Shown: one piece after another, positions 28,683 to 51,416 of the stretch
Layout of the letters: each line of letters starts with the position of its first letter
Position numbering within the stretch: the stretch's first letter is position 1
Assembly: GCA_029267335.1 (NCBI GenBank)
Contig: JAJUJC010000001.1
Span: 496,001-560,000, forward strand
Reading direction: 5' to 3'
Origin: Intestinibacillus massiliensis
Lineage (GTDB): Bacteria > Bacillota > Clostridia > Oscillospirales > Butyricicoccaceae
DNA length: 64,000 nucleotides
Made by a program: the position numbers and the translations under genes
Notes under the pieces: model-generated
What the model was told of the DNA's origin: nothing
Databases searched by the model: none
What the model saw: the letters and a program-made list of their open reading frames with translations, nothing else

Positions 28683-29924
28683 CTAACCTTTACTAACTGT
28701 AAAACTAAAGGATGTTCCTTTGCCATGCATACTCTCAACCCAAACTCGTTCATTGAGCCCTTCGATTATTTCCTTTGCAATAGACAGACCAAGTCCACTG
28801 CCATTCGCGTTATGTATTGTCTCATCTTTGTAAAACCGATCAAATATATAAGGTATTTTCCCCTTTTCAATTCCAACCCCATTATCTGATATAATCAGCA
28901 TAATGTAGTTGTCGTAGTTTTTAGCATCAACTACTATTTTGCCATTTTCATTAGTAAACTTTAAAGCATTATCTATCATTATATTTATTACCTGCAAGAT
29001 CCTATCTTTATTAGTATATAGTACAGGCAACTCAAATGCCGTTTTTGTTATTTCAAAGTCAATTCCAATATCCTTTATAATCACTGAGTATTGGTCGAAT
29101 ACCTCCTGCATTAATTCCTTTCCGCTTATATGTTGCTTTTCAAAATTCGCTTGCCTATTCTGAATTTTACAAAGCTCTAACATGTCTGTTACTAGCTTTT
29201 GCAGATTATTGCTTTCTCTAATAATTATACTATAATACTTAGCTTTCGTTTCCTCGTCTTTTACAATATCGTCTTGTAAAGTTTCCGCCAACGCTTTTAT
29301 AGAAGAAATTGGCGATTTAAGTTCATGGCTCACATTTGTAATATAATTTCTTTTGGTTTGTTCCAGATATAACATTTCATTATAGTAGCTCTTTAAAAAA
29401 ACCACTATTAAAATAAGTCCAATAAAAAGTGTGACAAAAAAAACAAGATAAAACCCATTTAGAACAGCTTTATAGTCACTTGCAGGTTTCATAAGAAACA
29501 CTGCACCACTCACTTTGTTTTCAATAACAATAGGATACCCTAAAACTATGGTTTCATATTTCCTATCATCGACTTTATCAATCACAGCTAACCTATTTCC
29601 ATCCAGTACACTAGGTAAATAGACTGCCAAATTCTTTGATAAAGTTGGATCTTCCACTCCTATCCCATCATAATCTTCTGTAAAGATATCTATCTCTTGT
29701 CCATTAACATCACAAGCAACTAAAATAAAATCATTATTTTTAGGAAGATTTCTATTGCCAGATTCGATTTCATTTGCGAGATGCTTTATAAAAGGCGTCA
29801 ATTCATTTTTCTTATAGTTCAAAAAGAATGATTTTATAGCTAGAGTGCCTAAAATTTGACTCATGATATATATAAGAACAATAACTCCAAAAACAATTTT
29901 CTTATCTGAAAGCAGCTTCCTCAT
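28683..29924 (-). CDS. Sensor histidine kinase
   Basis: 413 aa. Transmembrane helices at about 11-31 and 153-175 flank an extracellular domain of about 120 residues. HisKA has the phospho-accepting His in NVSHELKSPISSIKALAETL, and HATPase_c has N (IMIDNALKFT), G1 (ISDNGVGI) and G2 (GSGLGLSIAKEII) boxes. The start overlaps the stop of the response regulator by ATGA, so it was the second gene of that operon. With the regulator split by the prophage, both its promoter and its partner are gone. Confidence 0.93.
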   Translation of the reverse strand: MRKLLSDKKIVFGVIVLIYIMSQILGTLAIKSFFLNYKKNELTPFIKHLANEIESGNRNLPKNNDFILVACDVNGQEIDIFTEDYDGIGVEDPTLSKNLAVYLPSVLDGNRLAVIDKVDDRKYETIVLGYPIVIENKVSGAVFLMKPASDYKAVLNGFYLVFFVTLFIGLILIVVFLKSYYNEMLYLEQTKRNYITNVSHELKSPISSIKALAETLQDDIVKDEETKAKYYSIIIRESNNLQKLVTDMLELCKIQNRQANFEKQHISGKELMQEVFDQYSVIIKDIGIDFEITKTAFELPVLYTNKDRILQVINIMIDNALKFTNENGKIVVDAKNYDNYIMLIISDNGVGIEKGKIPYIFDRFYKDETIHNANGSGLGLSIAKEIIEGLNERVWVESMHGKGTSFSFTVSKG

Positions 29925-30230
29925 TGTTCCACCTCAAATTTATAACCAACGCCATAAACCGACTTAATATCTAGCCTTTTGGGGGAAATGCAAATTTTGG
30001 GACGCAACCTTTTTACAAGAGTATCTACTACTCTCGTATCTCCAAAGTAATCATAGCTCCATACATATCTCAATATTTGTTCTCTCGATAAAACTTTATT
30101 TATGTTTTTAGAGAAGAAAATTAACAATTCTGTTTCTTTGGGAGTTAAATCCAATTTCTTATTTCCAATACATACTTCATATCCTTCAGCATCGATTATA
30201 AGTTCTCCAATCACAATTCTTTCCAATGTG
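29921..30230 (-). pseudogene. OmpR-type response regulator, C-terminal remnant cut by prophage
   Basis: Only the winged-helix output domain remains: LERIVIGELIIDAEGYEV, LTPKETELLIFFSKN, VLSREQILRYVWSYDYFGDTRVVDTLVKRLR, then KSVYGVGYKFE. The receiver domain of about 120 residues that should come before is absent, and the sequence upstream changes to prophage end repeats. The right half of the gene should lie beyond the far prophage end, outside this window. The kinase gene follows with an ATGA overlap. Confidence 0.85.
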
Positions 30231-30250
30231 TTTGTAGCGCGACGAGATTT

Positions 30251-30300
30251 TTGAGAAATTGGGACAACATATTTGAGAAAAATAGGCCGTTTCTGAGAAG
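30251..30300. repeat. Terminal repeats, candidate transposase-binding sites
   Basis: TGAGAA occurs at 30252-30257, 30274-30279 and 30294-30299, the first two inside TTGAGAAA, at intervals of 22 and 20 bases, starting about 20 bases from the host boundary. Mu ends carry comparable short transposase sites in series, so these are candidate R1-R3 equivalents. Confidence 0.55.
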
Positions 30301-30380
30301 CATTTCCGAGGCTCGCTCACTTGCATCGCTCACCCCATTTTAGAGGGTAAGTCATGCAAAGGGGCGAGCCCTTTTTGATG

Positions 30381-30425
30381 CCCAGAAAAGGGAGGTTTTG
30401 AGCCCCTCTTTTCTGGGTCTTTTTT
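30381..30425 (+). terminator. Terminator-like hairpin at the late end of the prophage
   Basis: CCCAGAAAAG (30381-30390) pairs with CTTTTCTGGG (30408-30417), followed on the plus strand by TCTTTTTTG. It would stop transcription entering the prophage from the host side, and may also end the late operon weakly in the other direction. Confidence 0.65.
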
Positions 30426-30440
30426 GCCCCTTTGCCCGTC

Positions 30441-30590
30441 TTATTCGGTGAAGGTTCCAGTGCCTTCCTCCTGGGTCGCCAAATACTCAGCGACCGGGAC
30501 GATATAGGCTTCGGGGAGTTCCTCAATCTGACGCTTTCCGTTTTTAACAAGAACTGCGTAGACCGTTACCATGTACTGTTTTACTTTCAT
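30441..30590 (-). CDS. CD1375-like small phage protein (49 aa)
   Basis: ATG at 30590 overlaps the upstream stop (ATGA). The product begins MKVKQYMVTVYAVLVKNGKR and continues IEELPEAYIVPVAEYL, which resembles the CD1375 family of tiny proteins found at the tail end of clostridial phage fibre operons. Function unknown. It is the last gene of the late operon. Confidence 0.7.
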   Translation of the reverse strand: MKVKQYMVTVYAVLVKNGKRQIEELPEAYIVPVAEYLATQEEGTGTFTE

Positions 30591-30787
30591 TTATTTTGTC
30601 CTCCTTCAAGTTGTGTAACGCGCTCTGTGAGGGCTGCGTTCGCTTCTGTCAGTGCTGCGATCTCCTCATATAGCCCGGCGATCGCCTCATAGACGTCAAT
30701 GTTCTGTGCCTCGTTTTGCTCCTCTCTCTCTCGAGTGATCTCAGAGAGAGGCTTTTTCGGAGTGAGGTATTTCATGCCTTGACTCAT
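30587..30787 (-). CDS. Coiled-coil protein after the DGR target (66 aa)
   Basis: The ATG at 30787 overlaps the stop of the variable adhesin (ATGA), and the stop overlaps the next start. From about residue 30 the sequence is a regular heptad coiled coil (VYEAIAGLYEEIAALTEANAALTERVTQLEGG). Tight coupling to the adhesin suggests a trimerisation or assembly partner, by analogy with fibre chaperones; not recognised as a family. Confidence 0.68.
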   Translation of the reverse strand: MSQGMKYLTPKKPLSEITREREEQNEAQNIDVYEAIAGLYEEIAALTEANAALTERVTQLEGGQNK

Positions 30788-32643
30788 TCGTAAGCACCTC
30801 CAAACCCAGAGATGGAGACTTCGCCTTCGTACCCCGTATTTTTGGTGATGGTGAAGCGAATATTTACGCCCCACTTTGCCGCCGTTTTTGCGGAGTTGGT
30901 GAAGTTGAAGACTCGGTTGATTGCTACCTGCGCCGTGATGTCTTCCCATGTAGGAACGGCGTCAAAAGCGTTGTTGCAAGCCTCGACCTTTGCGACTGCG
31001 CCTTCGATCTTCCATGTAGGGGTCACGAGGATTTTTGTCGCCATTGCGTCAGTCTCTTCGGCTGCGGCTAACTGGAACGAGATGACCGTTTCCTTCTTGG
31101 AGAAGTTCCACACTCTGACAGAGGTTGCAAAGTTTCCATCTACCGCCTCTACTCTGAGTTGGTGGCTTCCGTTGGCGAGCTTAAGCCAGTTTTCACGGCT
31201 CACCTCAACCGTCGCTTGCTGCCCGAGCGTCGCTTGATAGGAGCGTAGCTCGATGCTGTCCAGATACTCAGTAATGACGACGTTATCGCCTTCAACGTCT
31301 GAAACGGTGTAGTTCTCAGCAAAGGCCCCCGTCTGCAATCCGATGTCTGAGTCTTGCCCGGAGATCATAGGCGCGGAGTTTGTACGCTTGAAGGTGAGTC
31401 TTCTGTACGCCGTCCCGCCCTTGCCGTCGGTGACGGTGATCGTGAGGGTATTGACCGAGTTGAGGGTTAGCGTGTAGAGCTTCTGATCCGTGATCGAGAG
31501 AGAGAGCTGCTCTCCGATCGGCGCGTTATTGATGGTTCTCAGCACCTCGTCGTTGAGCTTCTCCGTGACCGTTAGCGTGTCGCCGTCTGCGTCATCCACG
31601 GTATAGGTGTGAGTGAAGCCGAGGTTTTTATCGCCCAGGTTCGTATCTGTGCCGGAGATGGTCGGTGCGGAGTTGGTTCTCGTGAATGTCCACGTCCTCG
31701 TCGCGCTGCCGCCTTGACCGTCGTTCACTGTTACCTTGACCGTATGAGCTCCGAGCGACAAAGTCGTAACCGGGACGCTGATCGTGTACTGCGTGTTTCT
31801 CGTCGGCGAGAAGGTCTTCTTCGTAACTCCGTCAATGGACTCAACCGCCGTCAGAACGTCGCCGGAGTCGGTGTCGTTCACGCTGTACGGGATTGTGAAG
31901 TCGTTGTTCTTGTCTCCGAGGTTGCGATCTGTGTCAGAGATCAGAGGAGCAGTGTTCAGGACTTCAAGGACGGGGCGGAAGCCGCGGAGCGCGTCCCGGC
32001 CGGAAGACGAGCCGTAACACCAGCCGCGGGCCGAGTCGTACCCACGGAACGCCCGGTACGACGCGTCGCTTGCATACACCTCTTGACACCAGGAATAGAC
32101 GCCGATCCAGTGCCAAAACTGATTGTGTGTGCTGTTGTGGTCTGTACTGTTCATGGATGAGTCGAGGTCAGAGCTTACCGGGGCCGGGAGCCCTGTAATG
32201 ACCTCCTCACGAGTAATGAACCTGTCCCACTCGTTGTTAGTGGGCGAACCTCCCGCATAAGCGTCAGAGGCGTTTCTGTAGTTACTACCGCCCGTCAAAA
32301 GACGGCACTTGTAGCGAGCTCCGTCGATGGTGATTTCCTTACCAGAGACGAGCCCTTGAGCGTTTAGATCATCCCACGAGACAGACACCAGAAGGACACG
32401 GTCGCAAATAAGAAGCGTTTTGTCTCCGTCCTGGATTTTGTGCCATTGGAGTTTATTTGCCTCAGCGGACGGCGTGTTCCCGATGGTGTAGTTCGCCATA
32501 GAGCCGGACATGCTCGGGATGTTGCCGTTTCCGTTGCTGCCTCCTGCCGCGTCGTCATTTCTCCACGGCTTAGTAGGTAGGGCAAGGATTGCCCCGTTGT
32601 TGTAGAAACCGCCTAACTTGACGGTTCCGAGATAGGTAGCCAA
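30784..32643 (-). CDS. DGR variable protein: C-type-lectin/FGE-like adhesin with Ig-like repeats
   Basis: 619 aa from a TTG at 32643, with GGAGAG eight bases upstream; no better start exists. Residues 1-228 are the diversified domain: a Gly/Asn-rich start, TREEVITGLP, NQFWHWIGVYSWCQEV and GFRPVLEV, the usual closing strand of DGR lectin folds. Variable positions are Y196, F199, D203, G207, C209, G211, G215, D217 and L219. Residues about 230-322, 323-420 and 421-516 are three Ig/cadherin-like repeats, each starting near AP-x-IS and GD or IGL; 521-619 is a further beta-rich domain. It lies after the baseplate genes, so it is the likely receptor-binding tail protein. It overlaps the RT gene by 74 bases. 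Confidence 0.88.
   Translation of the reverse strand: MATYLGTVKLGGFYNNGAILALPTKPWRNDDAAGGSNGNGNIPSMSGSMANYTIGNTPSAEANKLQWHKIQDGDKTLLICDRVLLVSVSWDDLNAQGLVSGKEITIDGARYKCRLLTGGSNYRNASDAYAGGSPTNNEWDRFITREEVITGLPAPVSSDLDSSMNSTDHNSTHNQFWHWIGVYSWCQEVYASDASYRAFRGYDSARGWCYGSSSGRDALRGFRPVLEVLNTAPLISDTDRNLGDKNNDFTIPYSVNDTDSGDVLTAVESIDGVTKKTFSPTRNTQYTISVPVTTLSLGAHTVKVTVNDGQGGSATRTWTFTRTNSAPTISGTDTNLGDKNLGFTHTYTVDDADGDTLTVTEKLNDEVLRTINNAPIGEQLSLSITDQKLYTLTLNSVNTLTITVTDGKGGTAYRRLTFKRTNSAPMISGQDSDIGLQTGAFAENYTVSDVEGDNVVITEYLDSIELRSYQATLGQQATVEVSRENWLKLANGSHQLRVEAVDGNFATSVRVWNFSKKETVISFQLAAAEETDAMATKILVTPTWKIEGAVAKVEACNNAFDAVPTWEDITAQVAINRVFNFTNSAKTAAKWGVNIRFTITKNTGYEGEVSISGFGGAYE
31971..32064 (-). repeat. 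DGR variable repeat (VR)
   Basis: Aligns without gaps to 33956-34049. 16 of 94 positions differ. 15 are at adenines of the template (coding strand) and change nine AAC/AAT codons to TAC, TTC, GAC, GGC, TGT, GGC, GGC, GAC and CTC. The sixteenth is a T-to-G change (CTC to CGC, residue 220) close to the end where homing initiates. Just past 31971 VR has one base more than TR, so the two initiation sequences differ slightly, as expected of IMH and IMH*. Confidence 0.93.
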
Positions 32644-33751
32644 ATTGCATCTCTCCTTCCACTTTGATGAATGGGTAAGGCGCGAATATCTTCTTGCTTA
32701 GGTTATAAGCCGACGCCCATCGAGCGAAGCCGAGCCATGAATTGACCGCATTGACGACCGCCTTCATTGTGAGAAGTCCGGCCTTCATTTTCTCGACCAT
32801 CTTCTTGATGCGCCGCTTCTCCGCCCGTTTTGACTCGGTGCGTATGAGGAGATGCGTCGTCTTAATCTTGAAGCCATAGGCGTTCACGCCCTGCCTTAAA
32901 TAGAAAATCTTGGTTTTTGAGTTTGTCTCAAGGTGCAGCTTCTCAGCGAGAAACTCCTTGATTTTTGCGAGCCATTCCCGAGCCGTCGCTTTGTTTGGTG
33001 CAATGACGATCACGTCGTCCATGTACCGAGTATAGAGCGTTGCTCCCAGGTATCGGACGCAATACTGGTCAAGCTCGTTGAGGTAGATATTGGCGAAGTC
33101 TTGGGAGCTTACGTTCCCGAGAGGGATGCCTCTTTCTCCTTCTGGACTTGAGTCTATTACTTTGCAAAGCAGCCGATAAAGCTTTAGGAAGTCCTGGTAC
33201 TTTTCCGGGTGCTTCTTCTTAAGCTTCTTGAAGCGTTTTGCAAGGATGCTTTTGAGGACATCTCGGTCAATGGAATAAAAGAACTTGCGGACATCGAGTT
33301 TGATGACCATAGCCTCGTCGCCCCATTTTGCACAGGCGACCCTCATATCACGTTGCACATTGAACGCCGCTCGAATAGGGCCTTTCCCATATTGGCAAGC
33401 GAATGAACGATCGACGAATACCGGGCGGTAGATGTTCTGTAGCTCCTCATGGATGACGAGCTGCACGATCTTATCTCGAAGCCTCGGTATTGAGAGAGCC
33501 CGCCTCTTAGGTTCTGTTATTATCGTGTGATAATAGGAGCCCGGAGCGTATCGTCCGCTCTTGAGGTCACGCCATAGATTGACGTTATTGAGTTCTCTGT
33601 AGAGATCGTAGTCGACGGCCTCTTTCTTGTATTTTCGAGGGCCGCGAAGAGCCTCTTTGTAATGTGTTTCTATCCGATCATATCCGACCGCCTCCTCGAA
33701 GGTGGAGGGCGGCATAATCGGCGGTAATTGCTTTAAGGGGAATTTCGTCAT
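32570..33751 (-). CDS. DGR reverse transcriptase
   Basis: 393 aa from the ATG at 33751 (AAAGGA upstream). RT motifs in order: IPRLRDKIVQLVIHEEL, the first catalytic Asp in VIKLDVRKFFYSID (about 153), IPLGNVSSQDFANIYLNELD (about 209-228, the SQ box of DGR and group II-like RTs), catalytic YMDD (about 243-246), and a thumb-like C-terminus with SWLGFARWA. It copies the TR RNA into cDNA with errors at adenines. No maturase or nuclease domain is present. The stop lies 74 bases inside the adhesin gene. Confidence 0.94.
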   Translation of the reverse strand: MTKFPLKQLPPIMPPSTFEEAVGYDRIETHYKEALRGPRKYKKEAVDYDLYRELNNVNLWRDLKSGRYAPGSYYHTIITEPKRRALSIPRLRDKIVQLVIHEELQNIYRPVFVDRSFACQYGKGPIRAAFNVQRDMRVACAKWGDEAMVIKLDVRKFFYSIDRDVLKSILAKRFKKLKKKHPEKYQDFLKLYRLLCKVIDSSPEGERGIPLGNVSSQDFANIYLNELDQYCVRYLGATLYTRYMDDVIVIAPNKATAREWLAKIKEFLAEKLHLETNSKTKIFYLRQGVNAYGFKIKTTHLLIRTESKRAEKRRIKKMVEKMKAGLLTMKAVVNAVNSWLGFARWASAYNLSKKIFAPYPFIKVEGEMQFGYLSRNRQVRRFLQQRGNPCPTY

Positions 33752-33923
33752 CGTGGCATCCTTTCCATAATTGAAACGGCTTGGCAGCATTGACGCGGGT
33801 TTCTACCCACTTTGTAAGCTCGCCGCGTTCCTTGTTCTTTTGCGGTCTGCTACTGTTTTTACGCCGTGTTGCATGGCGAAGGATTACCTCTCCCTTGAAG
33901 TATAACAAGGACACGTCGCCGGA

Positions 33924-33936
33924 GCCGTAGCACGGC
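33924..33936 (-). other. Hairpin downstream of TR
   Basis: On the transcribed minus strand, GCCG-TGCTA-CGGC lies about 20 bases after the TR end, between TR and RT. DGR template RNAs need structured sequence just downstream of TR for priming, so this may be part of it. The stem is short; low confidence. Confidence 0.35.
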
Positions 33937-33955
33937 GATCGTATAACCTACAAGG

Positions 33956-34049
33956 CGGGGCGGAAGCCGAGGTTCGCGTTCCGGTTGGAAGACGAGTTGT
34001 AATTCCAGTTGCGGGCCGAGTTGTACCCACGGTTCGCCCGGTTCGACGC
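33956..34049 (-). repeat. DGR template repeat (TR)
   Basis: Lies between avd and RT on the same strand. In register with VR it reads S-N-R-A-N-R-G-Y-N-S-A-R-N-W-N-Y-N and on through nine Asn codons (eight AAC, one AAT). Of 20 adenines, 15 are changed in VR; the five unchanged include the two in Tyr TAC codons. Fully randomised, AAC/AAT codons cannot become stops, and nine of them allow 15 to the ninth power (about 3.8e10) combinations. Confidence 0.93.
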
Positions 34050-34075
34050 CAAACAGAGATAACCCTCAGTAGGTG

Positions 34076-34468
34076 TTACTTTTTGCTATAGGGCGAGCTT
34101 TGCGGATTGTGCTCGCTCGTTTTGTTGTAATAGGCTTGCTGTAGCCCGCCTATTATTCTCCCGATTTCCGCGAGGTCTGTCTGTAGCTCAAGAGCTTTTC
34201 CTTTCGTGATATACTTCTGGTTTCTTGCAACGCCGAACAGGGTGAGGAGCAACGTCTTCTCGCCGTCTGCTTCTTGGAGGTACTCCATCCTCTTTGCGGT
34301 TCGGATGTTGGTAAACATGACCGTATCACGAATGAGTCTATAAATAGCTTGCTTTATCTCTTGGCACAAGCAAAACTTCTCAGCGGCGGGGAAGTTCTTA
34401 AGCAAGGGGTAAATCTTTTCAAGGAAGACCTCCGCCTTCTTTTGAAGAGTCGTTTTGTTATCTGCCAA
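34076..34468 (-). CDS. avd: DGR accessory variability determinant (Avd)
   Basis: 130 aa from a TTG at 34468 with GAGGTG upstream; it overlaps the end of the previous gene by 11 bases. It is all-helical with many lysines and arginines (KAEVFLEKIYPLLKNFPAAEKFCLCQEIKQAIYRLIRD, then KRMEYLQEAD, IGRIIGGLQQAYY), the pattern of the four-helix-bundle Avd that forms a ring with the RT and binds TR RNA. Its place immediately before TR fits. Confidence 0.88.
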   Translation of the reverse strand: MADNKTTLQKKAEVFLEKIYPLLKNFPAAEKFCLCQEIKQAIYRLIRDTVMFTNIRTAKRMEYLQEADGEKTLLLTLFGVARNQKYITKGKALELQTDLAEIGRIIGGLQQAYYNKTSEHNPQSSPYSKK

Positions 34469-34751
34469 CGTAGAGACACCTCGCTTCTTTTATGCGCTCA
34501 AGCCCGGTGTCGTCTCCGTGTAGCTCGAAGCCGTAGTCCGTGAGCCGTATCTCGATAGGCTTCCCTGTGATCGTATTGTGCCCTCTAACGATACCGACGT
34601 CAACCTCTAACACTTCCAGACCGTCTACCGTGACGAGGAGGAGCTCGTCTTCCTGTAGGCCGCTACAGTGCTCACATATAGGAACAAGCTCGTTAAGTAT
34701 ATTCCCGACGATGCAGCTCGCTCGCTTCTTGGTACAAGCAACCTTACACAT
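34458..34751 (-). CDS. Cysteine-rich protein between tail gene and avd (97 aa)
   Basis: ATG at 34751 overlaps the upstream stop. The first 30 residues carry C2, C6, C13, C26 and C29 (CKVACTKKRASC ... ICEHC), a possible zinc site. The rest is beta-rich with repeated acidic stretches, ending YGFELHGDDTGLERIKEARCLYVGR. No family recognised. Coupled to both the preceding tail gene and avd, it is part of the fibre/DGR transcript. Confidence 0.68.
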   Translation of the reverse strand: MCKVACTKKRASCIVGNILNELVPICEHCSGLQEDELLLVTVDGLEVLEVDVGIVRGHNTITGKPIEIRLTDYGFELHGDDTGLERIKEARCLYVGR

Positions 34752-35055
34752 AGATTTTTCGGGCGATTGAGTCGTAAATGCCGGATGTGATCGCGACGCT
34801 GTCAACCGTGTCAAAGTTCTTTAAGAAGACATTGTTTGTCATGTTGTTGAGTGTGGCATCCTTAAGAACCTTGATTTCCTTCTGAGCGTCCGCAATGAGC
34901 CCGGCCTGGATGTTAGTCTCGTCGGTGACTAACTTAATACCTTCGTCCATGTGTCCGAGGTTTGTTTGACTTAACGGTGTCCCTTCTTGGATGACTTCTC
35001 CTGTTGCGACGTCTTCGACGTGGTCAAGCCATCCCACTTTCTCATAAGCTTTCAT
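34744..35055 (-). CDS. Tail-fibre-region protein (103 aa)
   Basis: Start taken at the ATG at 35055; an in-frame ATG at 35064 lies only three bases after GGAGG. After a short start (KAYEKVGWLDHVED) it reads GTPLSQTNLGHMDEGIKLVTDE, like the first segment of many phage tail-fibre proteins. It is probably a fibre base or adaptor between the gp48-like protein and the adhesin. No clear family. Confidence 0.65.
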   Translation of the reverse strand: MKAYEKVGWLDHVEDVATGEVIQEGTPLSQTNLGHMDEGIKLVTDETNIQAGLIADAQKEIKVLKDATLNNMTNNVFLKNFDTVDSVAITSGIYDSIARKIYV

Positions 35056-35371
35056 TGCTTGCATCTACCTCCATTTCTCGAATGTTGTATTTGAAGGCTA
35101 CATAAAGCCCCTTGCTTGTCGTCTTCGAGAAGCTGCGCCCGGTGGCCTCGGCGATGACATCGCCGTCCGTGTCAATGAGCTGCACGTTCTCAACCGTGCC
35201 GGAGACAGTATCGTCAAAGTAGACGTATACCTTCGCGCTCGTTCCCTCGACGATCTTGCGGAACGGACTCACGGTTTTAGGCTGCCCGTCGAGCGTGTAC
35301 GCTGCATGATCTACCGAGTTTACAAACCTTCGCCCGATCTTCTCAATTCCGACTTCTGTTAGTGTTTTCAT
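35042..35371 (-). CDS. Phage tail-region protein (109 aa)
   Basis: Beta-rich sequence of about 109 residues with VGIEKIGRRFVNSVDHAAYT and FKYNIREMEVD, adjacent to the gp48-like gene (ATG one base past its stop). It overlaps the next gene by 14 bases. Probably part of the tail tip or fibre network; family not recognised. Confidence 0.65.
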   Translation of the reverse strand: MKTLTEVGIEKIGRRFVNSVDHAAYTLDGQPKTVSPFRKIVEGTSAKVYVYFDDTVSGTVENVQLIDTDGDVIAEATGRSFSKTTSKGLYVAFKYNIREMEVDASNESL

Positions 35372-36214
35372 TTACTGGTTGCCTCCTTTCAAGTAAGTGC
35401 TTTGAGAGCACTTCGGATAATTATTGTCTCCGTCGTTCTCGCGAGATAGAACGTCAATGTTAGAGGAGAGCCCCTCATACATAACAAAGTCGCACGGCTG
35501 ATAGAACGACTCAGACGCGGCGATCGTTCCGACTCTCGGGAACTCAACATCTCCGCCGTCGCTCGTCCCATGTGCAGCCACAAGAGCCGTGAGTAGATGC
35601 CCTTCGTTTGCCACTCTTGGGAATATGCCACAAACGATCTCGCCGCAACGAGGATACCTTGAAGCACCAGATCGGAAGGTTGACAAAACTTCTATTGTCG
35701 CCCCCGTATCCATCCCATAGGAGGGTTTGCTGCTTCCTTCCTTAACCCGGCGAACCTCGGCGTCGATGACATCGAGATTATTGACGCCGGACTGTTTATC
35801 TCCTCTGAGGAATACAATGAACTCCGCCCATCTGTCGGTATCCTGTAACGAAAAGAGTTCGATATAGCTTCGCTCATATCCCAGAGCAGCCAGAGCCCGG
35901 AGTATGCCTTGCTTTGTTCCGGCTTCTTCTGCGATGATGCCCTTCATTGATAGGCGCGTCCTGTAGGCTTCTGTGCTTTCTCCTGCGAGTCTCGGCATCT
36001 CTCTGTCCTGCCCGTGTACCGGGAGCATGACAGAGCTCGCTGTGGCGACGTTAGCCTCGTCCCGTACTCGGAAGACGTCCTCTTTCATCCCGTCGAAGAT
36101 GCGGCCTATCACTTTGAAGAAGACGAAGAACTGGTTGACCGACCGCTTTCCTTTTTTCAAAGGGCCGAACAGAAGGTCAAACATGTACTCCCCAAATGTG
36201 TTAAACTGCTTCAT
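35372..36214 (-). CDS. Baseplate wedge/tail protein, gpI (Mu gp48)-like
   Basis: 280 aa. Begins MKQFNTFGEYMFDLLFGPLKKGKR and has the LPVHGQDREMPRLAGESTEAYRTRL and GTKQGILRALAALGYE motifs of P2 gpI/Mu gp48 tail proteins. It follows the gp47-like gene directly, the order found in Mu. It links the baseplate to fibres. Confidence 0.78.
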   Translation of the reverse strand: MKQFNTFGEYMFDLLFGPLKKGKRSVNQFFVFFKVIGRIFDGMKEDVFRVRDEANVATASSVMLPVHGQDREMPRLAGESTEAYRTRLSMKGIIAEEAGTKQGILRALAALGYERSYIELFSLQDTDRWAEFIVFLRGDKQSGVNNLDVIDAEVRRVKEGSSKPSYGMDTGATIEVLSTFRSGASRYPRCGEIVCGIFPRVANEGHLLTALVAAHGTSDGGDVEFPRVGTIAASESFYQPCDFVMYEGLSSNIDVLSRENDGDNNYPKCSQSTYLKGGNQ

Positions 36215-36218
36215 CGCC

Positions 36219-37352
36219 TCACTCCCTTCGTACCGTTACAGACACGGCTCCCAGGGTGACGACTTTATCCTTCGCAAGCTTGACGTCCTGCGAGGGGCTT
36301 GTAATCTCGACGTTTGTCGCCGATGCGTAGCCGCTGCGGATTGCATGGTTGATGTCCGATAGTCTCAGCTCGTAGAGCTTTCGACCCTTGCGGACTGCAA
36401 GGAGCTCAGAAAGTAGCGAGGAGACTTTGGTCTTAACTTCGTTGTCTTCCGCCGTGTCGCTTACTGTTACGGATACCGCCACATCTTGAGGCACGGTCAC
36501 AGAGCTTTTAACGAGCACGTCGTCGTATGGCCCGGTAATCAGATCAACGGCACTACGAACCTCGGACAGCAAGCCCTCGGTCGCTTCTCCTGCCGTGCCT
36601 GTTACAATGACGTCGATTGTACCTTGCCCTCGCGGGTGGTTGCAATCTGCTTGAGCAAACAAAACTCCGGGAACAGACTCAGCCGCATTGACAAACGTGT
36701 CCTCGATTGCTCTTGTCGCTCGCTCTGCCCACGAGCGAAGCCCTCTTGTGCGGAAGCTGTCGTCTTCCTCGGTGTCGCTGCCTTCTCTAACAATCCAGTT
36801 CTCGCCGTTGCTAATGGTTGAAACGCCGCTGAGGTATGTGAGGCTCTTTGTAATCTGTTCTTGAGGAACATTGTATCGGGAGCCTTCTGCCTCAGCCTCC
36901 ACCAGAACGTCGACCGTTCTTGAGCCTTTTTGTAGAACTGAGGCTTCAATGGTGAAGAAGCGAAGCTCCTCTCCGTTGATGTCCTTCTCTGTTTTGAAGA
37001 CGTGTCCCTTCGGTATTTTAACCGCGTCGGCTTGATCGTCTGTTCTTGACAGTGTCACAAACCCCTGTGTCTTTTGGGCTTTCTTTCGCTTCTTTGCGTA
37101 GTCCGCCGCCTTGATGTCAAGCCACGCGCCCCGCGCATGACTGACAAACATATTGTTTAGAACTGTGCGAAGGAGCTCGGTAAACTCGATCTTGATGCGG
37201 AGCACAATCATCATGATCGTGTAGAACACGCCGCCCGAGTGGAAGTTCGAGACAACGAAACCTTCCTCCTTCAGCTCTGCGATAGTCGCTTCCTTTAGCT
37301 CTTCAAGCTCGGGGACTGGAAGCACCTCGTCGAGTATTTCTTTATCAATCAC
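36219..37352 (-). CDS. Baseplate J (Mu gp47)-like protein
   Basis: 377 aa from a GTG at 37352 that overlaps the gp46-like stop. Motifs GAWLDIKAADYAKKRK and GFVTLSRTDDQADAVKIPKGHVFKT, then AEAEGSRYNVPQEQI and SGVSTISNGENWIVREGSDTE, are those of the baseplate J family. It should form the baseplate wedge. Confidence 0.9.
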   Translation of the reverse strand: MIDKEILDEVLPVPELEELKEATIAELKEEGFVVSNFHSGGVFYTIMMIVLRIKIEFTELLRTVLNNMFVSHARGAWLDIKAADYAKKRKKAQKTQGFVTLSRTDDQADAVKIPKGHVFKTEKDINGEELRFFTIEASVLQKGSRTVDVLVEAEAEGSRYNVPQEQITKSLTYLSGVSTISNGENWIVREGSDTEEDDSFRTRGLRSWAERATRAIEDTFVNAAESVPGVLFAQADCNHPRGQGTIDVIVTGTAGEATEGLLSEVRSAVDLITGPYDDVLVKSSVTVPQDVAVSVTVSDTAEDNEVKTKVSSLLSELLAVRKGRKLYELRLSDINHAIRSGYASATNVEITSPSQDVKLAKDKVVTLGAVSVTVRRE

Positions 37353-37758
37353 TTGTTACCACCTCCACACTTACCGCGTCGATGATGACGTTCAGTTCCC
37401 GGCGTTCTGACTCCTCCGAAAATTGGAACGAGCAGTATAGCCGGAAGGTATCGTCTTCATGGTCGACGGTTACTTGAATACTTTCCGGGAGGATGACCTC
37501 CCTTTTCTGTAGACCGAGCCTTGCGCGCTGCACAATCTCAAGCCTCGTGAGTTCGTCATCCTCGCTTTGGATGAAGTCGTACAAGCTCCACCCGAAGTCA
37601 GCATCATAGAATAGATCGCCCTTCTGCGTGAGAGCTTCGAGGATGATGTTCTGATAGAGACATTCGAGACCGGAGCAGAGCGGCGCGTCTCCGTCTGCCG
37701 CTTGTGTAAGCTGCCAGTCCGAAGACAGGCGAATATCGGTGTCTGATAGACCCGTCAC
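37345..37758 (-). CDS. gpW/gp25-type baseplate protein (Mu gp46)
   Basis: 137 aa. Contains DGDAPLCSGLECLYQNIILEALTQKGDLFYDADFGWSLYDF, the gp25-like lysozyme-type baseplate fold in all contractile tails, and an ending rich in beta-strands. It overlaps its neighbours by four bases on one side and eight on the other. Confidence 0.88.
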   Translation of the reverse strand: MTGLSDTDIRLSSDWQLTQAADGDAPLCSGLECLYQNIILEALTQKGDLFYDADFGWSLYDFIQSEDDELTRLEIVQRARLGLQKREVILPESIQVTVDHEDDTFRLYCSFQFSEESERRELNVIIDAVSVEVVTSD

Positions 37759-38117
37759 AATACCACCTCCCCAATGATTGCCGGAGAGATGTCTCCGTAG
37801 GCAAACGCTACCGCGACCACCGCTCCGCTTTGGAACTGTTTCTTAGACCTAATTCCGGGGAGAGGAGGGAAGTCTTCATCGACATTCCCGAAGCGGTCTA
37901 TAATCGTAAGACCGTACTCATACCACGAAGCCACAATATGCCCTCTGTAGCTTCCCCCGGACTCGTCGTTGTAAATGACGAGCTCCTCGAGCTCGTAGGT
38001 CTCGGCGAGCTTCTTCGCTGACGAAACGATCGCATAGGAAACGGCGGGGAGCGTCAAGTGCGGATAGTCAGCGGTGAGGGTCTTTGTTATGACGCTCTTG
38101 ACCATTTGTTCAAGCAT
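37755..38117 (-). CDS. Baseplate spike/assembly protein (Mu gp45 position)
   Basis: 120 aa from the ATG at 38117, preceded by AGGAGGGG. A short helical start (MLEQMVKSVITKTLTADYP) leads to an OB-like beta domain (GSYRGHIVASWYEYGLTIIDRFGNVDEDFPPLPG) as in gpV/gp45 spike proteins. No metal-binding HxH tip is visible. Position and fold support the call. Confidence 0.72.
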   Translation of the reverse strand: MLEQMVKSVITKTLTADYPHLTLPAVSYAIVSSAKKLAETYELEELVIYNDESGGSYRGHIVASWYEYGLTIIDRFGNVDEDFPPLPGIRSKKQFQSGAVVAVAFAYGDISPAIIGEVVL

Positions 38118-38139
38118 TGGCGTCCCCTCCTTTCTGGTT

Positions 38140-38895
38140 TCAAAAATAGATTTTTGTGCGGATGAAGCCCGAGTCATTGGTTGCAGATACGACCTTCTTG
38201 ACCTCGAACTCTCCGCTCACTTGTGGGTGTATTACATTGATGTTGTGCGAGTGCTTCACGAATGGAGCGGAGACCGTTTCCAGTTCCCAGACGCCCCCGG
38301 TTCTCGTAAGGCCGAGAATATTGACTCCATACTCGAAGGCGTAAACCTTCTTTTGTTCCGGGCGTTCTCCCCAATAAAACACGCCGCCAGAGAAGAAGAA
38401 CTTCTTCTTGATGCCCCATGCAGCATGTACCGCATTGATCGCCTGGATGACGTTCATTTTTCGGATAGGGACTTGCTTTCGTTCTGGGTATCCCTGTGAC
38501 GAGAGCTTCATCTTCGTGACTCCTGCTTGTGACAAGAAGTAGGAGATCATCTCCTGGGGCGTTGTGTTGAGAAAAGTGTTGTTGATCGTGGTCTCTTCAA
38601 GAAGCAGCATATCATCTTTGAGGTTGACCTCATTTGCAAAGCCGCCCCCGTCGTAGCCTTGAGCAACATACCCGGAGAACACTTCCTCGAAACTGTTGTT
38701 ATACCCGAGATTGATGACTGCCGGGTCTTTTTTGTTGAGGCTTATCTTTGGCTGATACTGCTCCGTAAAGCGTACCTTTGCCCAATCAAAGTATGAGTCC
38801 TGCGAGGAGAATACTTCAAGCTCGACGCCTTGGTCGAAACAATAGGAGCCCACACGAGCCTCAATTTGCGGATAGTAAAGTTCGGTTATCTCCAC
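38140..38895 (-). CDS. Baseplate hub/late control D-like protein (Mu gp44 position)
   Basis: 251 aa, starting MEITELYYPQIEARVG, with beta-rich repeats and the segment NVIQAINAVHAAWGIKKKFFFSGGVFYWG, as in phage late control gene D-type hub proteins. It lies where Mu has gp44 (P), between the gp43-position gene and the spike. Confidence 0.72.
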   Translation of the reverse strand: MEITELYYPQIEARVGSYCFDQGVELEVFSSQDSYFDWAKVRFTEQYQPKISLNKKDPAVINLGYNNSFEEVFSGYVAQGYDGGGFANEVNLKDDMLLLEETTINNTFLNTTPQEMISYFLSQAGVTKMKLSSQGYPERKQVPIRKMNVIQAINAVHAAWGIKKKFFFSGGVFYWGERPEQKKVYAFEYGVNILGLTRTGGVWELETVSAPFVKHSHNINVIHPQVSGEFEVKKVVSATNDSGFIRTKIYF

Positions 38896-38907
38896 GGTAT
38901 GACCTCC

Positions 38908-39486
38908 TTAGTACGGCATCTGAGAGACACGGTTCATAGCCGCCGACGAGCTTGCGTCATCTACGGCGGGAGACTTCCCTCTGTTACTGCTTAAGTAATT
39001 CTTGTAGTCAGAGTTTAAGCTGCTCGCCGTCTGAGCTGTCGCTTTGCCCGAGGAGCTGCCGGAACCGCTTTTCTTTGCTGCGATTGTCTGGGGGATGTAC
39101 TCCCAGAACTCAAGCGTAACAGAGAGTTGATCTTTCTTGCTTTCTGCCTTGTGGCTTAGGTTCTTAAAGAGCACCTTATCAATGCCGTGGGCTGCTGTGT
39201 CTTCACTTACAATAGGAATAGGCTGCGGTACTGCTTGCCCCGGTTTTCGGAAGATCGCCCGGAGCGTTGCGAGCCTCTGGTACTTCGTGCTTGAGCCTAC
39301 ATTGTCGAGAATGAGCTCGATGTTGACCTTTGCATCCTCGTACCCGGTAGCCTGTTTCGGCTTGGCTGCGCTGCCTTCTACTTCTTGCTCGTCAATCTTC
39401 GCCGTCTCCTTGACCTCAATACTTTTGAGGAGGCCAGGGAGGACGACCCCGTTCACTTTGACGAGTTGGTCTTCAACGTAAATCAT
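38908..39486 (-). CDS. Tail protein in Mu gp43 (DNA circulation) position
   Basis: 192 aa. A beta domain (VKVNGVVLPGLLKSIEVKE, AKVNIELILDNVGSSTKYQ, LATLRAIFRKPGQAVPQP) is followed by a low-complexity Ser/Gly/Lys tail from about 140. In tail operons a domain like this joins the tape measure to the hub. The gene starts 16 bases after the tape-measure stop. Family is uncertain. Confidence 0.65.
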   Translation of the reverse strand: MIYVEDQLVKVNGVVLPGLLKSIEVKETAKIDEQEVEGSAAKPKQATGYEDAKVNIELILDNVGSSTKYQRLATLRAIFRKPGQAVPQPIPIVSEDTAAHGIDKVLFKNLSHKAESKKDQLSVTLEFWEYIPQTIAAKKSGSGSSSGKATAQTASSLNSDYKNYLSSNRGKSPAVDDASSSAAMNRVSQMPY

Positions 39487-39501
39487 GGTCGCCCTCCTTT
39501 C

Positions 39502-41886
39502 TTAAGCCGGTTCTGGTTGCGCGTCCGTGTCGACCTCGCCGCCGTTTGCGTTGGTGTAGTCCTCCACTTCCTTGAGAAGAGAGAGGAGGAGCTGCAAGTC
39601 TTTGATTTTCTTGACATCAACTTGCATGAGAAGCTTTTGGATGATGACGTTCTTCTCGCCGCCAGAGCGCGAGCCTTCGCCGTCATCTTGGTTTTGCTGA
39701 GGCTCTCCGCCGAGCTTTACCTTTTTTGCGGGTTCTCTGGTGAGTGTCCCGTCTACCTTTTGGAAGCCCTTTTCAACGGCTTTCGCGGGTGCATCCTGCG
39801 CCAATGCGACGCCGTCCGCAAAGGTTGTCATCGTCCTTTGACCCGATAGGGTGAGGGTGGAGAGTGGGCCTTCTTTTGCGTCCGAGTGCGGGAACAGGTT
39901 CTTGACCTTGCCGAAGATGTTCTTCACGGCATTGACGGGAGCCATAGCCACCGACTTGATGCCATCAACAAATGTTGTAATGAGCCGCTTTCCGGCTTCT
40001 CCAAACCAGGAGATTTTCTCCTGTATCCATGTCACCACGTTATTGAAGCCTTGCCGGATGAAGTCAATCCCCTGGGCGATGCCTTGTCCTATGCCTTGGA
40101 AGAACCCGAGGAACGCTTGGAAGCCTCCTTGTAGCCACTGGATACCCGCCGAGACTGCATTGCAACATGCGTCCCATGCACTGCGAAGCCACGCGGTAAC
40201 GGAGTCCCAATTCTGCCAGAGCAGTATGATAGCAGCAACAAGGGCGATGATCGCTATAATTATCCATGTGATCGGGTTAGCCAGGAGTGCAGCGGTAAAG
40301 CTCCATACCCCGGCAATAAGCCCGGGAAGGGCGGTCACTGCTGTTACAATCGCCTGTTTTGCCATTCCAATAAGCCCGAGAGCCATGTTCTTGAGAGCCG
40401 TAACGCCAGAGATTGCGGCGGTCTTTGCCATACTTGCAATGTTGACAGCTACGTTTTTAATGCCCGTTATCGCCGTAGAGCCCGCCGTCTTCATGACGGA
40501 GAACCCTTTCTTAATACCGTCCCCGGCGTACAGGGCCATAATATGAACGGTATCTAATAGGTCTGGTATCTTACTTATAGCTCGGGCAAACCCTCCGACG
40601 AACCCCGCCGTCTTTGTGAGAACGAGGCCGACGTCGCCAACAACGGCGATCGTAGTGCCCGCAACCGTGAGGAAGCCGCCGATAGCAAGAACAACGAGCA
40701 TAATAACTCGGACGAGCTCCTGGTTATCTTCTATCCATGTCGCGACCTTTGAGAGTAGTTGCTCACCTTTTCCCATAAGATCGTTGACTGTTGGTAGTAA
40801 GCTGTTACCGATAGACTCCTTGACGTTTTGGATGCGCTGCGTCAATCTCTCAAACCGCTCCGGCTCGGTCTCCTGCATCGCGGACGCCATCTCTCGGGCG
40901 ACTCCTGCGCCGGAGCCGAGGGAGTCGTACATCCCGACGATGTTGTCCTGTAGGTCGCCGACCTTGTTATACATGAGGTCGATCAGCGCGACGGCTTCGG
41001 TATCTCCGAACGCCTTTTGAAGTTCTACCTTCTCAGCGGCGTCCATCGTCTCGCCGAACTTTCCTCTCAGTTTGTCGAGGATCTCCGGCATACTGAGCAG
41101 TTGGTTGTTGGTGTCTGTGAACTTTAGGCCGAGCTCCTCGCCGCCCTTGACCGCCGAACGAAGGAAGGCTTTATACTTGGTTCCCGCCTCAGCTCCTCCC
41201 ATCGTGGCCTGTAACATGCCGAGGATAGAGAGCTGCTCTTCAAGCGGCACGTTTGCCGTAGTCGCCGAACCGCCGAGGGTTTGGATGGATTGCGCCATGC
41301 CGGAGCCCGTCGTCTTGAACTGCTGCACCGATTTCGCGATACCCGCCGAGAACATTTCCCCGAACTCCATATCGGATAGGTCGTTATAGTAGTCCTTATA
41401 GATGCCGTACCCCGTGGCAAAGAGGGAGGTCATCTCTGCCGCCGTTGACTTCGTTGCCTTGCCCGTAAGTGCTGCGAGACTCGTCATATCGGCGACGCCC
41501 TCGTCTGATAGAGAAGCAATGCCGGACTTGATGTCATAAGCCGCCGTGATGAAGTCCGACTTTGTCGTGCCGCTCCATTGATCGGAGAAGCTCTTCGCGG
41601 CATCTTCGACGGCCTGTAGGTCTTTGACGCCCAGAGAGGACAGCTCTCCGATTGCCTTTCTTGTGGCGAATGTAGCTTGAACCGGGGCGAGTGTGGCGTC
41701 TGTGATCTGCGCTCCGACGCCCGCCATGACTGCGCCCGTTTTTGTGATATTCCCGAGGGTTTGGTTCATGCCCTCGAGCTTTGAGACCGAGTTGCCGACG
41801 CTCGACTGAACGCCCGCCATTGGGCCCGTTAGGTTGTCGATCATATTCATAATGAGCGACAATTTGAATACAGACTCTAAACTCAC
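39502..41886 (-). CDS. Phage tail tape measure protein
   Basis: 794 aa from a GTG at 41886 after GGAGGTG. The N-terminal third is a helical TP901-type domain (KAIGELSSLGVKDLQAVEDAAKSFSD, SVQQFKTTGSGMAQSIQTLGGSATTANVPLEEQLSILGMLQATMGG, AFGDTEAVALIDLMYNKVGD). Hydrophobic helices lie near 390-420 and 520-560, and a repetitive region 560-690 ends in the basic C-terminus. Length sets the tail length. A plus-strand cargo gene with its own promoter starts within 52 bp of this start. Confidence 0.92.
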   Translation of the reverse strand: MSLESVFKLSLIMNMIDNLTGPMAGVQSSVGNSVSKLEGMNQTLGNITKTGAVMAGVGAQITDATLAPVQATFATRKAIGELSSLGVKDLQAVEDAAKSFSDQWSGTTKSDFITAAYDIKSGIASLSDEGVADMTSLAALTGKATKSTAAEMTSLFATGYGIYKDYYNDLSDMEFGEMFSAGIAKSVQQFKTTGSGMAQSIQTLGGSATTANVPLEEQLSILGMLQATMGGAEAGTKYKAFLRSAVKGGEELGLKFTDTNNQLLSMPEILDKLRGKFGETMDAAEKVELQKAFGDTEAVALIDLMYNKVGDLQDNIVGMYDSLGSGAGVAREMASAMQETEPERFERLTQRIQNVKESIGNSLLPTVNDLMGKGEQLLSKVATWIEDNQELVRVIMLVVLAIGGFLTVAGTTIAVVGDVGLVLTKTAGFVGGFARAISKIPDLLDTVHIMALYAGDGIKKGFSVMKTAGSTAITGIKNVAVNIASMAKTAAISGVTALKNMALGLIGMAKQAIVTAVTALPGLIAGVWSFTAALLANPITWIIIAIIALVAAIILLWQNWDSVTAWLRSAWDACCNAVSAGIQWLQGGFQAFLGFFQGIGQGIAQGIDFIRQGFNNVVTWIQEKISWFGEAGKRLITTFVDGIKSVAMAPVNAVKNIFGKVKNLFPHSDAKEGPLSTLTLSGQRTMTTFADGVALAQDAPAKAVEKGFQKVDGTLTREPAKKVKLGGEPQQNQDDGEGSRSGGEKNVIIQKLLMQVDVKKIKDLQLLLSLLKEVEDYTNANGGEVDTDAQPEPA

Positions 41887-41900
41887 GCTTTTCTTTCACC

Positions 41901-41931
41901 TCCTGATCTGATATACTGGAAGCAAAGGAGG
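41901..41931 (+). promoter_or_regulatory. Promoter and ribosome-binding site of plus-strand cargo gene
   Basis: Extended -10 TG-A-TATACT (TATACT at 41912-41917) without a strong -35, then AAGGAGG at 41925-41931 before the ATG at 41939. The promoter lies in the same 52 bp that carry the tape-measure ribosome-binding site on the other strand. Confidence 0.6.
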
Positions 41932-41938
41932 CGGTAGT

Positions 41939-42184
41939 ATGACCTTGATATTTGTTATGTTGAAGGTGCTTGTGTTTGCTCTGTGCGCCGGGGCGATCGT
42001 TTCCGTTATTGTGTTTGTTCCATTAGGTCTATATGTCATTCCATACGCCCTGTGGGTAGGGCGTGAGCAGACTATGGGTAGACAGAAGGACAAACTCCAA
42101 AAGGGCGAAAATGTATTCCGCACCGCAAAGAACGCGACAAAACTCTATAAAGCATGGATAACCAGGCAGGAGCCGACCTTTTGA
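41939..42184 (+). CDS. Plus-strand membrane protein (moron), 81 aa
   Basis: ATG at 41939 after AAGGAGG. The first 40 residues are two hydrophobic stretches (IFVMLKVLVFALCAGAIV, then VFVPLGLYVIPYALWV), and the C-terminal half is basic and soluble (RQKDKLQKGENVFRTAKNATKLYK). It is transcribed against the tail operon, with its own promoter and terminator, which is the mark of a moron. Small membrane morons often act in superinfection exclusion; here function is unknown. Confidence 0.72.
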   Translation: MTLIFVMLKVLVFALCAGAIVSVIVFVPLGLYVIPYALWVGREQTMGRQKDKLQKGENVFRTAKNATKLYKAWITRQEPTF

Positions 42185-42200
42185 GGTCGGTTCTTTTTTT
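42174..42200 (+). terminator. Terminator of the plus-strand cargo gene
   Basis: GAGCCGACCT and AGGTCGGTTC form a hairpin (about 42171-42193) around a short loop at the gene end, followed by seven T residues on the plus strand. Confidence 0.85.
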
Positions 42201-42426
42201 ATTCCGAGAACACCTCAGAGATTGCCCGAGACATTATCCCTTGCTCAAGCTCTTGCACATACCTCGCACGGGCGACATACCTCATAAACTCTTCGAGATC
42301 AATCGCCTCGATGTCAAACCCCTCTAAGCAAGCCGGAGGGAGGAAGCGGTATATTTCCAGAAGCCCGGCTTCAACCACGTTCCCCCGTATCTCCGAGAGC
42401 TGCTCGCTTAGAGCATCTTCAAATTT
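42199..42426 (-). CDS. Tail assembly chaperone, -1 frameshift extension
   Basis: An open frame in the -1 register continues from the heptamer AAATTTG (42426 to 42420) to a TAA at 42199-42201. It adds about 73 residues, EDALSEQLSEIRGNVVEAGL, then IYRFLPPACLEGFDIEAIDL and YVARARYVQELEQG. It has no start codon or ribosome-binding site of its own, and it begins within the last codons of the upstream gene. This is the G/GT arrangement found before tape measures in many phages. Confidence 0.85.
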   Translation of the reverse strand, partial: KFEDALSEQLSEIRGNVVEAGLLEIYRFLPPACLEGFDIEAIDLEEFMRYVARARYVQELEQGIMSRAISEVFSE

Positions 42427-42842
42427 GTTTGCTTGGAGAGGCCGAGCATACCGAGCAGCTTCTCACCAATGGAGAGAGCCAGAGCCGGATACTCCTCAAG
42501 GTCGGCTTCTAACGCTGCCTTGCTTTCCTCCGTGACGTTGTCGAACAAGAACGTCTTGAGGGCCTTTGTCGCGCCCTGCGCGGTGGTCTTGACGTAGCGG
42601 TCGTAGCTCCCGGTCGAGGGCTTCTTGAAGAAATATTCGACCGTCTTCTCGGTCTCGTCGTCAACGTCAATCGTCGCACCGACGCGATAGACCTTTCCAT
42701 ATTTCGCCTTAAGCTCCTCGGCTCGCTTTTTCTTCTCAGCCTCAGCGGAGAGCATAGCTTCAACCGCTCCACCGGGGGCGAGTGCCCCTTTGATTACGCC
42801 CACCGCTTCCGCAATGTCGTTCGTTTTCTTCATATCTTCCAT
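42408..42842 (-). CDS. Tail assembly chaperone (0-frame product)
   Basis: 144 aa, AGGAGG before the ATG. Soluble, lysine/glutamate-rich, with AEEKKKRAEELKAKYGKVYRV-like helical segments, GATIDVDDETEKTVEYFFKKP and a C-terminus ALSIGEKLLGMLGLSKQTNLKML. Its last codons contain the slippery site ACA-AAT-TTG. The position directly before the tape measure and the frameshifted partner make the role clear. Confidence 0.85.
   Translation of the reverse strand: MEDMKKTNDIAEAVGVIKGALAPGGAVEAMLSAEAEKKKRAEELKAKYGKVYRVGATIDVDDETEKTVEYFFKKPSTGSYDRYVKTTAQGATKALKTFLFDNVTEESKAALEADLEEYPALALSIGEKLLGMLGLSKQTNLKML
42420..42426 (-). promoter_or_regulatory. -1 programmed frameshift slippery site
   Basis: A-AAT-TTG in the zero frame, a perfect X-XXY-YYZ heptamer with both codons re-pairing as AAA-TTT. 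A weak hairpin (GCTC-TAAGC-GAGC) follows eight bases later. The -1 frame is open for 73 codons. Confidence 0.82.
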
Positions 42843-42878
42843 GATAAAATCCTCCTATCAATTATTTTGAGATAACGC

Positions 42879-43316
42879 TTACACGGGTTCGACGCCGTCC
42901 TGGATAACGCCGCCGAAGATCATAAGGTCAAGGTCGACCGTGAGCTTCTTGTCTCCCTGTGCCGCCTTGTTGCTTCGCTTGCTGATCTTAACCTTCTTGA
43001 GCTCGTCGATGCGAGTGCGCTCGCCTTCGTTGGCGTAGCTTACGACGACCGAAGGAATGTCCACTTTGTAGAATGGAACGCCCTTCGCCTTGCACCATGC
43101 AAGGAAGTCGTCATAGTCATCTCTCAGCATGGAGATTTTGCCGGACGCCTTATAGTTGCCCGTTCCGTAGCCTCTCGGCTTATTGCCGCGACCATAGACT
43201 TCTTCCATCTCGAGCTCGTCGTCATAGCTGATTTCCTGGACATTCAGAACGAGGCCGGGAACCTTGACATCAACGTCGCCCCAATCGTAGGCTTTTCCGT
43301 TTACTTTCAAAGACAT
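42879..43316 (-). CDS. Tail tube protein
   Basis: 145 aa, AGGAGG before the ATG. Small beta-rich protein with GDVDVKVPGLVLNVQEISYDD, PRGYGTGNYKASGKISMLRDDYDDFLAWC and a final LTVDLDLMIFGGV, the pattern of contractile tube subunits next to the sheath. Its order sheath-tube-chaperone matches Mu. Confidence 0.87.
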   Translation of the reverse strand: MSLKVNGKAYDWGDVDVKVPGLVLNVQEISYDDELEMEEVYGRGNKPRGYGTGNYKASGKISMLRDDYDDFLAWCKAKGVPFYKVDIPSVVVSYANEGERTRIDELKKVKISKRSNKAAQGDKKLTVDLDLMIFGGVIQDGVEPV

Positions 43317-43335
43317 AGTTGTTTAACCTCCTTCC

Positions 43336-45556: not shown

Positions 45557-45559
45557 TGT

Positions 45560-46051: not shown

Positions 46052-46052
46052 A

Positions 46053-46508: not shown

Positions 46509-46541
46509 GTTGTCCCCTCCCTTCTAAGAGTTGGTTCCGAC

Positions 46542-47432: not shown

Positions 47433-47456
47433 GGTTTTTTATCCTCCTTGTTTCAT

Positions 47457-47900: not shown

Positions 47901-47907
47901 AGTTTAT

Positions 47908-48945: not shown

Positions 48946-49082
48946 TTTGCGTGTGTCCTCCTTTGCTTCGCTCCCGAACCACTCTCTAACGCCGTTATAA
49001 CGCGTGATAACGGTTGCTTATTCTTGTAGTGGAAGAATTACCCTCCGATATAGTTAAGCCGTTTATAGGGCTTCTCTGGGGC

Positions 49083-51402: not shown

Positions 51403-51416
51403 GTTGCCCCACCTCC

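Follow-up and report, generated by a model that had tools for sequence, protein, structure and literature searches.

A further Mushu-type transposable prophage, in Intestinibacillus massiliensis, with a complete and apparently working diversity-generating retroelement

The stretch analysed here, called the window, is 64,000 nucleotides long and comes from Intestinibacillus massiliensis (assembly GCA_029267335.1, contig JAJUJC010000001.1, positions 496,001 to 560,000). All coordinates refer to it, and the right end of the prophage described below, which lies beyond it, is counted as window-equivalent. Near its middle the window carries a diversity-generating retroelement (DGR), in which a reverse transcriptase (RT) copies a template repeat (TR) into a variable repeat (VR) of a target gene. 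We read this element as a complete DGR at the late end of a transposable prophage related to Faecalibacterium phage FP_Mushu (Mushuvirus mushu, MG711460, BK063464), with a probability of about 0.93 for this joint explanation. As far as its sequence tells, the DGR is apparently a working system.

All parts of the cassette lie on the minus strand in the order avd, TR, spacer, RT gene and target gene, and Avd, TR, RT and target gene were found where the original prediction had placed them. The avd gene (34076..34468, 130 aa) matches PF22296 (bAvd, E 3.6e-25) and phrog_3206 ('Avd protein of DGR'). It is followed by the TR (33956..34049) and a spacer that corresponds to Rfam RT-9 (RF03080; 33845..33940, 75.8 bits against a gathering threshold of 46.1, E 5.5e-13). 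The RT (32570..33790, 406 aa) matches PF00078 (RVT_1, E 5.6e-17) and a PHROG named 'Reverse transcriptase', and the motifs of the DGR type are intact, namely LGNVSSQ for [ILV]GxxxSQ and YMDD for YxDD. Its best solved relative by sequence is 8ub7 ('Reverse transcriptase', E 2.2e-35), which we take to be the enzyme of Bordetella phage BPP-1 and which outranks the RTs of group II introns. In one related cassette (L006, RT at 2670-3881) CADD replaces YMDD at the active site, while the cassette is otherwise complete and its VR diverged. The target gene (30784..32643) encodes a protein of 619 aa with matches to Big_9 (E 2.3e-10) and phrog_36643 (1040 bits). It starts with TTG at 32643, preceded by the ribosome-binding site AAGGAGAG and its spacing (32644..32658), which lie inside the 3' end of the RT gene and are kept in homologues. 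The homologues start with ATG or TTG at the equivalent place. In Mushu, as in others, an ATG with the same conserved signal stands at the matching place inside the RT gene, and therefore the Mushu target gene is probably 44 codons longer at its start than annotated.

Evidence that the element has acted comes from the pattern of differences between TR and VR (31971..32064). Both align over 94 bp without gaps and differ at 16 positions, of which 15 are adenines in the TR, although the TR contains only 20 adenines (hypergeometric P=2.5e-12). The VR carries A at none of the 16 positions, and no change in the reverse sense is seen. The adenine bias claimed earlier from the sequence is confirmed by this test, and the list of nine Asn codons changed to Tyr, Phe, Asp, Gly, Cys, Gly, Gly, Asp and Leu proved to be exact. 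Since every TR adenine sits in an AAY or TAY codon, A-to-N mutagenesis cannot create a stop codon, and about 6e11 protein variants are reachable. A search of the own genome for a second VR returned none, TR and VR being the only two strong matches.

The same footprint is found in related phages. Two IMG/VR contigs, L003 and L004, encode an RT 97% identical to that of the window and share one VR, so that they were counted once. Their TR is identical to the one in the window but their VR is different, and the L004 VR departs from the shared TR at adenines only. Between the VRs of window and L004, 11 of 12 differences fall on TR adenines, the twelfth being a T-to-G change of the window's own. All changed VR codons (9/9) are nonsynonymous, whereas changes in the remaining target gene are mainly synonymous. 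The check on related prophages proposed with the original prediction thus came out in its favour, and the adenine footprint together with phages of the same TR but another VR bears out that the DGR has acted at least once. Just upstream of the VR (window 32100-32600) the target gene diverges from L004 by up to 18%, mostly at synonymous sites, compared with about 3-4% in the RT gene, a pattern suggestive of recombination around the VR, not of selection.

Ten independent TR/VR pairs (window, L004, L001, L002, L005, L006, Mushu, its 1300-year-old relative, MT836657 and host genome G348) are changed at 125 of 216 adenines and at only 6 of 724 other positions. For 17 additional IMG/VR pairs the counts are 206/370 and 29/1228; this set includes L051, the same contig as L005, which leaves 26 independent pairs across both sets. 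Avd and RT are adjacent in nearly all cassettes long enough to show both.

The DGR is located in a true Mu-like transposable phage of 34,781 bp on the minus strand (30233..64000, other end at window-equivalent 65013). Its ends, TGTGAGGAGAC...CGCGCTACA, resemble the Mushu termini, and the 5-bp target-site duplication GTGTT flanks both sides (left copy 30228..30232). When the prophage is removed in silico, a 268-aa open reading frame for an OmpR-type response regulator is restored, whose 3' part remains at 29921..30232 (minus strand). The prophage encodes a MuA-type DDE transposase (59390..61456; PF09299, PF02914), a MuB-type AAA ATPase (58406..59377; profile match, syntenic with Mushu transposase B) and a Mu portal, all of which agrees with the Mu-like nature proposed before. 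Likewise the host is fairly called Gram-positive because its genome contains Spo0A and lacks Omp85.

Mushu shares the late-end order Avd-TR-RT-target, the Mu-type transposase, RT-9 and the target architecture, with a target protein 77% identical (aa) to the Mushu 'Hoc-like' protein. Gene order is shared over most of the prophage length at a DNA identity of 66-79% (about 70%). The host genome is another one and each phage has its own TR and VR. The element is therefore a further phage of the Mushu type, a type that is already known: Mushu was described in 2018 as a transposable phage with a DGR (PMC5883640), its virions and transposition have been demonstrated, and it inserts at many sites without a fixed attachment site (PMC5883640, PMC11792537).

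The VR does not lie at the end of the target gene but inside, at codons 194-224 of 619, followed by 395 codons, and it occupies the same place in the homologues. The usual C-terminal position of VRs has been explained by the need for cis-acting DNA behind the VR (Roux et al., PMC8144416), and in the 2018 study VRs are said to lie at the 3' ends of genes (PMC5883640). Mushu's own VR at 34819-34912, in a gene that ends at 36099, contradicts this statement. In codons 222-237 (31933..31980), which comprise the initiation of mutagenic homing (IMH) sequence and the coding DNA that follows, synonymous sites are frozen: 11 of 14 informative codons are identical in seven divergent phages compared with 15% elsewhere, with P 2e-7 for a stretch that was picked after inspection. 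When all 358 equal-sized stretches were scanned, codons 222-237 ranked first, bar one neighbour at tie level. More distant cassettes, with targets of only about 59% identity, retain the stretch as well. We consider that this frozen DNA behind the VR is probably a retrohoming signal that is kept inside the gene. The 3' end of the TR with its flank (TTCCGCCCCGCCTTGTAG, 33948..33965) is of the IMH* type and differs constantly from the VR version, the flanks being CGCCTTGTA or CGCCCTGTA at the TR and CGTCCTTGAA at the VR; IMH* and IMH of BPP-1 likewise differ.

The template RNA can be followed across the related cassettes. RT-9 matches the spacers of the homologous cassettes searched as well, in full length as in the window. 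Among 394 genomes of the order a Mushu-type RT is present in 2, the host genome included, and RT-9 scores above threshold only in these two; G199 shows an RT-9 match below the cut-off and no RT nearby. The Rfam model covers the spacer only and leaves out a helix that it forms with the 5' flank of the TR. This predicted 12-bp helix pairs AGGGTTATCTCT (34055..34066) with AGAGGTAATCCT inside RT-9 (33880..33891). In an alignment of 24 RNAs (A4), of which 23 are distinct, all sequences are paired at all positions, and five pairs are changed on both sides. If a weaker 5-bp helix is included in the count, 99.5% of the cells are paired, a count inflated by kinship among the RNAs, whereas slid versions reach 44-70% and none of 500 shuffles attains any of the measures. 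The 12-bp helix is recovered unprompted by RNAalifold, and it is altered in several distinct ways (L055, L057, L058/L061, L060/L062, L065, L069, L070, L071). The covariation shows that the TR is enclosed in a loop closed by this predicted helix and conserved across the whole group, and Mushu has the helix, too. In BPP-1, RT-Avd is recruited by the spacer, and a motif in the terminal part of avd brings synthesis to a stop (PMC12875486); by analogy, the helix may set start and end of TR copying.

Pairing between the 3' end of the TR (CCTTG) and RT-9 (CAAGG) covaries in some loci and is broken in L060 and L062. The CAAGG block can alternatively pair with a local CCTT of the spacer (98.9% paired, one covarying pair). 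In a thermodynamic search for duplexes between TR flank and spacer, a crude test, 100 of 500 shuffles were as good for BPP-1 and 73 of 500 for the window. In addition, a conserved block of RT-9, ACUUCAAGG, is exactly complementary to CCTTGAAGT, which lies directly behind the VR. In each of the 19 cassettes in which a simple search located the block, its match to the flank of the VR is better than that to the flank of the TR. If the spacer also recognised the target gene by pairing, retrohoming would be partly RNA-guided, which would account for the frozen coding DNA behind the internal VR. We regard such guidance as very improbable and have rejected it: the VR flank stays unchanged where the RT-9 block changes (L057, L058, L061, L068, L071) and covariation gives no support.

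The target protein has the architecture of the tentaclins (PMC10743442), with an N-terminal lectin domain that bears a hypermutated beta-hairpin, immunoglobulin (Ig)-like domains and a conserved last domain, the latter judged by conservation alone. In that work the Mushu protein is discussed as well; the tentaclins nd4/nd12 have low sequence identity to Mushu-type proteins, and the window protein belongs to the Mushu branch. The whole target modelled with AlphaFold from five sequences gave pLDDT values below 50 for the lectin domain. Modelled alone from 37 sequences, this domain (aa 2-231, 31951..32640) reaches pLDDT 92.3. Its nearest solved folds are TvpA of Treponema (2y3c, Z 8.8 over 148 residues, 3.6 A) and PvdO, followed by Mtd of BPP-1 (1yu3, Z about 7.5) and TaqVP of Thermus (5vf4, Z 6.8), where Z below 8 is weak if taken alone. 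In the model the VR falls on the last beta strands, as it presumably does in TvpA, Mtd and TaqVP. Because three DGR variable proteins are among the best matches and the VR lies on the last strands, assignment of the modelled domain to the C-type-lectin/FGE fold of DGR targets is sound. The best viral fold matches of the lectin domain model (31939-32640) are virion structural proteins of the large phages PhiPA3, Noxifer and PhiEaH1. A counterpart of the last 197 residues of the target, 75% identical, is found in L027 (5989-6579; Dulem virus 33), between tail and lysis genes and without a lectin domain; this module is perhaps a movable anchor.

From these parts the following course can be proposed. 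Order and strand suggest an operon that would be transcribed through avd, TR, RT-9 spacer and RT gene. By its covariation, the template RNA is predicted to fold with the 12-bp helix joining the segment ahead of the TR to the RT-9 spacer, closing a loop around the TR. The RT with Avd would copy the TR from its 3' end and misincorporate opposite adenines; the TR/VR pattern speaks for this outcome, and the enzymology is borrowed from BPP-1. The cDNA would then replace the VR, the putative homing signal being the 3' stretch identical in TR and VR plus the frozen coding DNA that follows it. In this way the last strands of the predicted lectin domain would be randomised at the nine Asn codons. The Ig-like domains would form a stalk, and the protein would be anchored in the virion by its conserved C-terminal domain. 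The protein most likely binds a ligand on the host cell or in mucus, and phages spread by transposition would thus meet varied receptors.

Several points weigh against this reading. The sixteenth difference between TR and VR is not at an adenine (T to G, CTC to CGC, codon 220). A stem-loop like that of BPP-1 was not seen behind the VR, where the DNA fold is matched by 21 of 200 shuffles. Only a single VR state is known for this strain, and Mushu cultures gave no clear VR signal in one study, whose reads showed either no variation at the VR or a shifted one (PMC11792537). The difference off adenine, and the identity of only 83% between TR and VR, could be taken as signs of a simple segmental duplication whose copies diverged by point mutation. 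This is refuted by the adenine bias in the window pair, in the ten-pair set and in the 17-pair set, and by the RT and Avd neighbours in nearly all sufficiently long cassettes. Chance and ordinary divergence are excluded because the relatives show the same adenine pattern, and we give the duplication a practically negligible probability. The single VR state and the Mushu cultures would fit with a fossil, a DGR that acted once in an ancestor and is silent now in this prophage. However, Avd, RT, TR, spacer and target gene are all intact with no broken part, and a phage with identical TR and 97% identical RT carries another VR while the remainder of its target gene drifts mainly at synonymous sites. 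A silent element is therefore unlikely.

For the role of the target protein the alternatives are closer. The original prediction of a receptor-binding fibre is likely from the place of the gene, but 'fibre' remains an inference as the target is labelled Hoc-like head decoration in the nearest phage. GenBank and PHROG give this name to related proteins, and mucus binding is cited for T4 Hoc (PMC5883640), which would make the variable protein a capsid decoration that binds mucus instead of a bacterial receptor on the tail fibre. On the other hand, the label rests on the Ig domains, and T4 Hoc has no lectin domain (PMC10743442). The gene follows those of baseplate J protein (36219..37352, profile match) and a Tail_P2_I-like baseplate/tail protein (35372..36214, Pfam and PHROG matches), both on the minus strand and upstream of the cassette, which is the expected place of a tail fibre, and no second fibre gene is annotated in the Mushu genome. 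We hold the capsid decoration for a real possibility, though the lesser one beside a receptor-binding tail protein.

The combination of a DGR with a transposable Gram-positive prophage is not new. It is known from Mushu and from the Mu-like Firmicutes phages with DGRs of Toussaint 2013, as cited in PMC5883640; additional such phages are described in PMC10805732 and PMC11792537. The hankyphage of Bacteroides (PMC6199706, PMC12135933) and Bacillus phage BalMu-1 are also transposable, Mu-like and equipped with a DGR or DGR-like RT, but differ in hosts and targets, and the BalMu-1 RT is only about 30% identical. With BPP-1 the element has Avd, TR, spacer, RT and a lectin-fold target in common. The BPP-1 VR (3443-3576) is placed terminally in mtd (gene 3438-4583) and is followed by a GC-rich inverted repeat, whereas in the window the VR is internal and the target lies downstream of the RT.

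We found no prior description of RT-9 as the TR-RT spacer (an earlier mention of a link between RT-9 and DGRs is possible), of the helix that brackets the TR, or of frozen DNA behind an internal VR. With this prophage a phage type already known is confirmed for another host, and the comparison of two dozen related cassettes yields an RNA fold that can be tested for a DGR distant from BPP-1. Moreover, Rfam RT-9 is tied to a DGR template RNA, and a homing signal carried within coding sequence, as suggested here, is relevant to the question of why most VRs are found at the ends of genes.

Two further observations were made. L021 (IMGVR_UViG_2887205122_000002) encodes a surface protein of 1,723 aa that has Listeria-Bacteroides repeats, carries LPQTG at its end and contains two lectin-type domains. 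The DNA of these domains, at 4393-4486 and 5260-5353, is similar to the phage TR (67 and 48 of 74 non-adenine positions). The 22-kb contig of L021 has no RT, and G212 contains two similar pattern matches spaced about as in L021. The resemblance raises the question of whether these repeats might be host-encoded DGR targets with a template elsewhere or served in trans. The host DNA left of the prophage (window 991-9667) carries a dnd-type phosphorothioation cluster (DndA, DndC, DndD, DndE and a PbeA-like helicase; PADLOC), together with a further BrxP/SspD-like protein.

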